A stretch of DNA of 64,000 nucleotides. It comes from a virus. A program made the translations under genes and the position numbers. The DNA lies in IMG/VR virus record IMGVR_UViG_3300031718_000006, positions 1 to 64,000 of that record; one strand, given 5' to 3'. This document shows, piece after piece, positions 27,482 to 28,360 of the stretch; position 1 is the stretch's first letter; each line of letters begins with the position of its first letter. Below the pieces are notes generated by a model. The model saw only the letters and a list, made by a program, of their open reading frames with translations. It did not search any database and was not told the DNA's origin.

Positions 27482-28336
27482 TTACGAAGGTTTTTCGCCC
27501 TTAGTCCACCAGTCAAAGCCAGCCTCTTTCGCTTCGGCTTTGGTCTTGACGCCAGCCTGCACCGCCGCCTGCCAACCCGCAACAGAAGGCTCGACGCAGA
27601 TAAAGCCAAGTTCTTTGTTGACGTGGAACTTCCGGCCAAAAGGCTTCTGCTCTCCGCAATTCGGACACTCCTCTGGGCGAGTACCCTTCCGCCGCCAAGT
27701 GAACGATTCGCCAAAGTATTCGGCCATGTACGCAAAATCAGGGTTCGACCCCAATTCTTCATTCAGTTGGGCCTTATTGGTCACTTCAAGGGTCTGCGCC
27801 CGCGTCCGAAGTCCGTTGTAATACGCTTCCATGCGGTCGTAGGCTGCGCGAACGTCCTGAATAGTCGGAGGGTTCGTCAGGGCGAAAAACACGCCCTTTT
27901 GCGAGAGATTGTTGCCGACTGAGAACACGTCTTTGTCGGGGATGATCGTGTTCAAATCCAAGGACTTATTGTCTGGATTTACGATGTCCATGACGTAACG
28001 TCTTGCATCCACGCGAATTTGTCCGATTTCAGAGGTTTGGCTGTCAAATTTCGGCATCAGCATGGGTTGCGGAAATGATGTGACGTAGTGGTATTTTTCG
28101 TTGGCCTTCATTCCCGGCAAATACGGGTCGGTATCGGTCACGCCGGGGATATTGACTACTTCGTAAGGGCCAGCTTTGGGGAAAGTGCGTGCGGAAACGT
28201 TGTACAGGTAGACATGGTATTCAGCGATGTGGCGAGGTTGCCATTCCATCCCGCTATATGCGGTATTTCCCCCAAGGGCGGTGGTATTGGTGGATACTGC
28301 TTTACCTTCGTCGGCAAGACCTACGGTAACTGGCAT
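27482..28336 (-). CDS. Virion-operon protein with zinc ribbon (284 aa)
   Basis: Opens MPVTVGLADEGKAVSTNT. Middle is strand/helix mixed (HIAEYHVYLYNVSARTFPK). A C-terminal zinc ribbon, CPNCGEQKPFGRKFH...FICVEP, is followed by a helix with VQAGVKTKAEAKEAGFDWW. Position after capsid and chaperonin genes suggests a structural or assembly protein. Its start codon lies inside a perfect hairpin whose loop carries the AAGGAGT ribosome site, so its translation is probably controlled. Confidence 0.6.
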   Translation of the reverse strand: MPVTVGLADEGKAVSTNTTALGGNTAYSGMEWQPRHIAEYHVYLYNVSARTFPKAGPYEVVNIPGVTDTDPYLPGMKANEKYHYVTSFPQPMLMPKFDSQTSEIGQIRVDARRYVMDIVNPDNKSLDLNTIIPDKDVFSVGNNLSQKGVFFALTNPPTIQDVRAAYDRMEAYYNGLRTRAQTLEVTNKAQLNEELGSNPDFAYMAEYFGESFTWRRKGTRPEECPNCGEQKPFGRKFHVNKELGFICVEPSVAGWQAAVQAGVKTKAEAKEAGFDWWTKGEKPS

Positions 28337-28360
28337 AGATGAGACTCCTTCTCATCTATG
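28334..28360 (-). promoter_or_regulatory. Hairpin trapping the ribosome site and start codon
   Basis: On the minus strand: CATAGATGAG (28351-28360), loop AAGGAGT (28344-28350), CTCATCTATG (28334-28343). The two arms are perfect 10-bp complements. The loop is the Shine-Dalgarno and the last three bases of the right arm are the ATG of the 284-aa gene. In RNA this would present the SD but bury the AUG, a plausible translational switch or binding site. Confidence 0.7.

Follow-up and report, generated by a model that had tools for sequence, protein, structure and literature searches.

A start-codon hairpin that displays the Shine-Dalgarno sequence in an uncultivated GroEL-bearing phage, and a covarying tandem hairpin element in the same operon

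Results

Genomic setting of the 284-aa gene

The stretch of DNA analyzed here (the window) comprises 64 kb of a 67,493-base IMG/VR record of an uncultivated phage, whose coding content includes GroEL, GroES, a Ro60-like protein, the terminase large subunit, and four tRNAs. The GroEL and GroES genes lie beside that of the Ro60/TROVE-vWA protein, together with tRNAs for Ser, Pro, Ala, and Thr (29080-32584 and 35314-35640, minus strand), and the Rfam search of the window returned the four tRNAs and nothing else. The hairpin studied here lies between two minus-strand genes, 33 nt apart, that are arranged head to tail in an operon, described as a late operon. The features of the locus are as follows.

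27482..28336, minus strand: 284-aa gene, with a C-terminal CxxC..C cluster; function not assigned
28370..29110, minus strand: upstream gene, a 246-aa frame whose conserved part fits a start at 29083
28370..28372, minus strand: TAG that ends the upstream gene, 9 nt ahead of the left arm of the hairpin
28334..28360, minus strand: whole hairpin CATAGATGAGA-AGGAG-TCTCATCTATG in the mRNA of the 284-aa gene
28350..28360, minus strand: left (5') arm CATAGATGAGA, from the fold
28345..28349, minus strand: loop AGGAG, core of the Shine-Dalgarno (SD) sequence, from the fold
28334..28344, minus strand: right (3') arm TCTCATCTATG, from the fold, with the start codon (28336-28334) at its end
28341..28348, minus strand: extended SD GGAGTCTC, which recurs in several leaders of the phage and of its relatives
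26375..26391, minus strand: H1, CCCGCC-GAGAA-GACGGG with one C-A mismatch, before the 143-aa gene
26345..26361, minus strand: H2, TACGC-TGAGGAG-GCGTA with the SD in its loop, before the 143-aa gene
25907..26338, minus strand: 143-aa gene, putative target of the H1-H2 tandem element; family in at least 14 further phage loci

The 284-aa protein gave no match in Pfam or PHROGs searches, and its structure model was poor (pLDDT 66). Only one relative reached 58% identity (L001, record G001), and the remaining ones were at 44% or below. No relative of this protein or of the 455-aa protein was found in the cultured-phage collection, and a scan of genome_contigs yielded no encoding relative.

Anatomy of the start-codon hairpin

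The sequence CATAGATGAGA-AGGAG-TCTCATCTATG (28360-28334, minus strand) makes a perfect 11-bp hairpin. Its 5-nt loop contains the SD, and its right arm ends at the foot of the stem with the AUG that starts the 284-aa gene. The sequence, coordinates, strand, and start codon were all as given in the original prediction. Its description of a 10-bp stem with a 7-nt loop was right as to the perfect arms and the SD in the loop, whereas the actual fold has 11 bp and the loop AGGAG, with the flanking A and U forming a further pair. The leader RNA reads UAG-UUUCUCAAU-CAUAGAUGAGA-AGGAG-UCUCAUCUAUG-CC. When folded alone, the hairpin had an energy of -13.7 kcal/mol (z -4.6).

The extended SD GGAGTCTC occurred nine times in the window against 1.9 expected, and the copies at gene starts lay at 19505, 28341, 31188, 33678, 37211, 43831 (minus), and 43869 (plus); in relatives, several of these genes have it as well. 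Since this right half is common, the distinctive feature at the start of the 284-aa gene is the complementary left arm.

Structures were also seen in other leaders. The leader of the 441-aa gene (37217-37232, minus strand) carries ACGGGC-TT-GCCCGT directly before TAGGAGTCTC, and G001 has CGGGC-CTA-GCCCG at the same place. The leader at 43830 was considered as a second SD-sequestering hairpin and rejected, as its arms proved to be GGAGTCTC leaders that belong to two divergent genes (43831-43838 and 43869-43876); the inverted repeat GAGACTCCTT/AAGGAGTCTC at 43831-43876 thus consists of the SD leaders of the genes 43830 (minus) and 43879 (plus), and the AT-rich stretch between them may hold divergent promoters.

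The hairpin is not a chance product

We generated 200 second-order Markov genomes, in which hairpins that precede an ATG, have the SD in the loop, and reach a stem length of 10 bp or more arose at 0.005 per genome, and the same layout with an 11-bp stem did not arise at all. Among the 66 SD-type starts of the phage genome, the leader of the 284-aa gene had the most extreme fold (z -4.2). These results bear out the very low chance that had been ascribed to the layout, and the start-codon hairpin is not due to chance. Perfect 11-bp hairpins with loops of up to 12 nt numbered only two in the window: the start hairpin and one at 4621-4653 (AATCGGGAGCC, 11-nt loop). A general family of such hairpins was sought in viral_contigs with the loop-anchored pattern ATGAGNNGGAGNCTCAT and rejected, the 90 matches being scattered and mostly away from gene starts.

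Start closure in related phages

The nearest phages by the 455-aa protein (76-81%) were G001, L141/G002, L110/G003, L109, and L117, and the leaders of the three whose sequence reaches the 284-aa gene (G001, L141, and L110) were compared. The leader of G001, GGGACAAGGAUAGAAACUCACCAUAGGAGUCUCAUCAUGUCC, folds into a bulged hairpin of different sequence (-12.5 kcal/mol), whose stem takes in the AUG and pairs part of the SD, indicating that display of the SD in a loop is not kept there. L141 has the order CAUAGAGA-U-(GGCGC..GCGCC hairpin)-AAGGAG-UCUCUAUG; the stem still holds the AUG and the loop the SD, and both arms are 3 nt shorter than those in the window, a matched deletion (-18.2 kcal/mol). 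In L110, the AUG of the 284-aa gene lies outside such a stem, and a similar hairpin, TTAGAaGAGA-TTAGGAG-TCTCaTCTAATG, was found in the leader of a different gene. About 30 more distant orthologues, like L110, lack the architecture that buries the AUG, and in these distant relatives a short GGCGC-type hairpin precedes the SD or such a structure is missing. The short hairpin lies just 5' of the SD in L161 (as GACGC/GCGTC), L162, L167, L175, and L185, whose leaders also contain repeated ACTCA strings.

The sequence of the arms was not conserved among relatives. Compensatory changes, which had been proposed as a check on the hairpin, were seen in part only: the matched 3-nt deletion of L141 is of this kind, whereas the hairpin of G001 is bulged and of other sequence, and L110 and the distant relatives give no such change.

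Opening the start region of the 284-aa gene was calculated to cost 14.3 kcal/mol against a genome mean of 8.1, rank 4 of 73, and the orthologous starts ranked 6 of 73 in G001 and 1 of 52 in G002; these ranks were looked up post hoc, and several of the higher-ranking starts are doubtful gene calls. Closed starts were present in the window and in two of its three close relatives and absent in the distant ones, so that start closure seems to be a property of a small GroEL-bearing clade in which the sequence changes fast. The distance from the upstream stop codon to the left arm was 9 nt in the window, 9 nt in L141, where the stop belongs to a small 87-codon frame, and 14 nt in G001.

A tandem hairpin element before the 143-aa gene

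Two genes downstream of the start hairpin, H1 and H2 form a tandem element (26345-26391) with a spacer of ~13 nt. The element is defined as two short hairpins with GAGGA-type loops, 11-17 nt apart. Across about 20 phages, both stems change completely through compensatory changes while the loops stay, the H1 loop of L172 being different. The H2 stems around TGAGGAG include CGCGC/GCGCG, TGGTC/GACCA, TGTGC/GCACA, CTGAC/GTCAG, and GATTC/GAATC, and the H1 stems around GAGGA include TCAGCC/GGCTGA, ACGGAC/GTCCGT, and TCCGAC/GTCGGA, among others. The covariation score was 0.76 for H2 against 0.19 for shuffles (12 leaders, of which 10 have the stem in full or in part and two lack it) and 1.06 for H1 against 0.28 (seven leaders).

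Viral_contigs were then scanned with the loops and closing pairs only, which gave 77 places. All 14 places with a downstream protein of the family, as judged by HMM, had both stems. In the enlarged sets, to which three rows (L305, L272, and L242) were added by eye, 94% of the cells were paired for H1 and 96% for H2, and the covariation score was reached by none of 500 shuffles. The closing C-G pairs were fixed by the search pattern and so do not count as evidence. Several of the more remote members of the 143-aa family are preceded by ordinary leaders.

A covariance model of the element (R1) had one strong match in the window, at 26333-26393 (62 bits), and in relatives it matched once per genome, each time at the position of the 143-aa gene. 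It did not match the start hairpin at 28334-28360, which is not a copy of the tandem element. The best covariation in the window belongs to the tandem element, which is better supported than the start hairpin. Rfam gave no match to the element of the window or in seven further loci, six of which carry the tandem element. Searches with two members of the 143-aa family found no relative in the cultured-phage collection, and the structure model of the 143-aa protein (pLDDT 82) had no PDB match at an E value of 0.001 or better; of its two best viral matches, one was an unnamed protein and the other an uncharacterised protein of Haloarcula californiae tailed virus 1.

The strict link to one gene family points to autoregulation or to a regulator specific for the gene, with CsrA-like dual-site binding as an alternative (PMC7652899). 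The tandem element is probably undescribed as an RNA element and appears to represent a new family of conserved phage RNAs, whose stems covary strongly and whose gene partner is fixed.

Discussion

A proposed brake on translation of the 284-aa gene

Taken as a whole, the explanation that we favor, though tentatively, is that the hairpin is a cis-acting RNA element restraining translation initiation of the 284-aa gene. The cis-acting effect on initiation is its firmer part and is rather probable. Free 30S subunits would touch the SD in the loop and seldom open the 11-bp stem, and with the AUG hidden in it, independent initiation would be low. In T4, 30S binding is lost at starts that a helix encloses, and ~100-fold less lysozyme is made from transcripts of this kind (PMC3014915). 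A second part, termination-reinitiation coupling, is added on top of the cis effect and is put forward with more reserve than the brake itself. The stop codon 9-14 nt before the left arm makes reinitiation by ribosomes that have just terminated attractive; initiation would then come mostly from ribosomes that have finished the upstream gene and reach the foot of the hairpin, and the 284-aa product would be kept low and tied to its neighbor gene. The hairpin had originally been read as a possible translational switch or stability element that overlaps a promoter-like element: the translational part of that reading remains the best one, given the opening cost of 14.3 kcal/mol and the starts of two relatives that are also among the most closed, and the promoter overlap was not borne out.

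Alternative explanations

A phage or host protein, either CsrA/RsmA-like or a phage-specific repressor, could read the GGA of the loop and lock or open the hairpin as a protein-controlled operator. Classic CsrA-type sites present a GGA over the SD by means of a hairpin loop (PMC7652899), and the same operon holds the conserved tandem element with GGA in both loops. However, csrA was not found in six phage records by a search whose control was positive in 3 of 14 genomes. Moreover, selected CsrA ligands mostly have four or fewer contiguous pairs (PMC7652899), far fewer than the 11-bp stem; the loop differs from GAGGA, the tandem-element model fails to match the start hairpin, and neither arms nor loop are conserved at the 284-aa gene. 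We consider such an operator unlikely. A broader idea, that late translation in this group of phages is served by an RNA-recognition system of its own, in which a phage or host factor reads the loop GGA over ribosome sites and takes both the tandem element and the 11-bp hairpin as targets to set the ratio of structural proteins, is more speculative still.

Two further explanations are about equally improbable, slightly more so than the last. In a stage switch of the T4 gene e type, read-through transcripts would be closed, and translatable transcripts free of the hairpin would come from a late promoter located within or next to the left arm. The anatomy matches that of T4 e, soc, 49, and I-TevI, in which a late promoter lies within the 5' strand of the structure (PMC3014915), and the original prediction had noticed a late promoter-like string in the left arm. 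That string was not confirmed as a promoter: no sigma-70-type site was found there or elsewhere on the minus strand of 26300-29200, although the phage's own promoter type may differ, and the window contained 24 TATAAATA-like sites where 21 were expected, which is no enrichment. The 284-aa gene also lies inside a head-to-tail operon with a gap of just 33 nt. Under neutrality, in turn, the right arm would be the common GGAGTCTC leader and the left arm would have become complementary without function. Many leaders do share GGAGTCTC without such a hairpin, the arms vary in sequence between relatives, and the structure is missing from most of them; against this stand the expectation of only 0.005 per genome, the closed starts recurring in L141 and G001, and the similar hairpin at another gene of L110.

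Least probable is a DNA-level palindrome (an operator or similar) or an mRNA stability or processing hairpin with an incidental start codon: the 27-bp near-palindrome could bind a dimeric protein and further hairpins occur near ribosome sites in these phages, but the AUG falls precisely within the stem and the SD within the loop, L141 keeps this layout despite its altered arms, and the palindrome was seen just once in the window.

Comparison with known systems

In the RNA phage MS2, the coat-protein operator covers the replicase start. The proposed brake resembles it in holding the ribosome site and the AUG in one hairpin and differs in belonging to a dsDNA phage, in having neither a bulged A nor an ANYA tetraloop, and in having no known binding protein.

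Like RegB target sites, the leader has GGAG in an intergenic start region, and RegB alone can cut if the GGA is unpaired and its last G constrained (PMC3014915). Whereas the RegB consensus is GGAGRAYARAA, GGAGUCUCAUC does not fit it, with UCUC after GGAG instead of RAYARAA; a search for regB (PF10715) gave no match, and its control gave no signal either. CsrA/RsmA targets such as the glgC leader (PMC7652899) likewise have an unpaired loop GGA overlapping the SD. Such a site has a short stem, an ANGGAN hexaloop, and the consensus RUACARGGAUGU, whereas the present hairpin has an 11-bp stem and a 5-nt AGGAG loop flanked by GAGA and UCUC, and csrA was not found in the six phage records searched.

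The start-region structures of T4 (e, soc, 49, and I-TevI; PMC3014915) also place a phage start in an RNA helix, which should reduce 30S binding. In the e/soc type, a late promoter lies in the 5' strand and two classes of transcript differ in their translation; in the 5' strand of the present hairpin, no sigma-70 or TATAAATA-type site was found, although late promoters of this phage may be of another type. In the T4 structures, the SD and/or the AUG is in the helix, whereas here the AUG is paired and the SD lies in the loop, not in the stem. The hairpin is most likely a lineage-specific translational brake and a variant of the known start-region hairpins; if functional, it would be a compact and readily testable brake, in which the SD is displayed and the AUG is locked.
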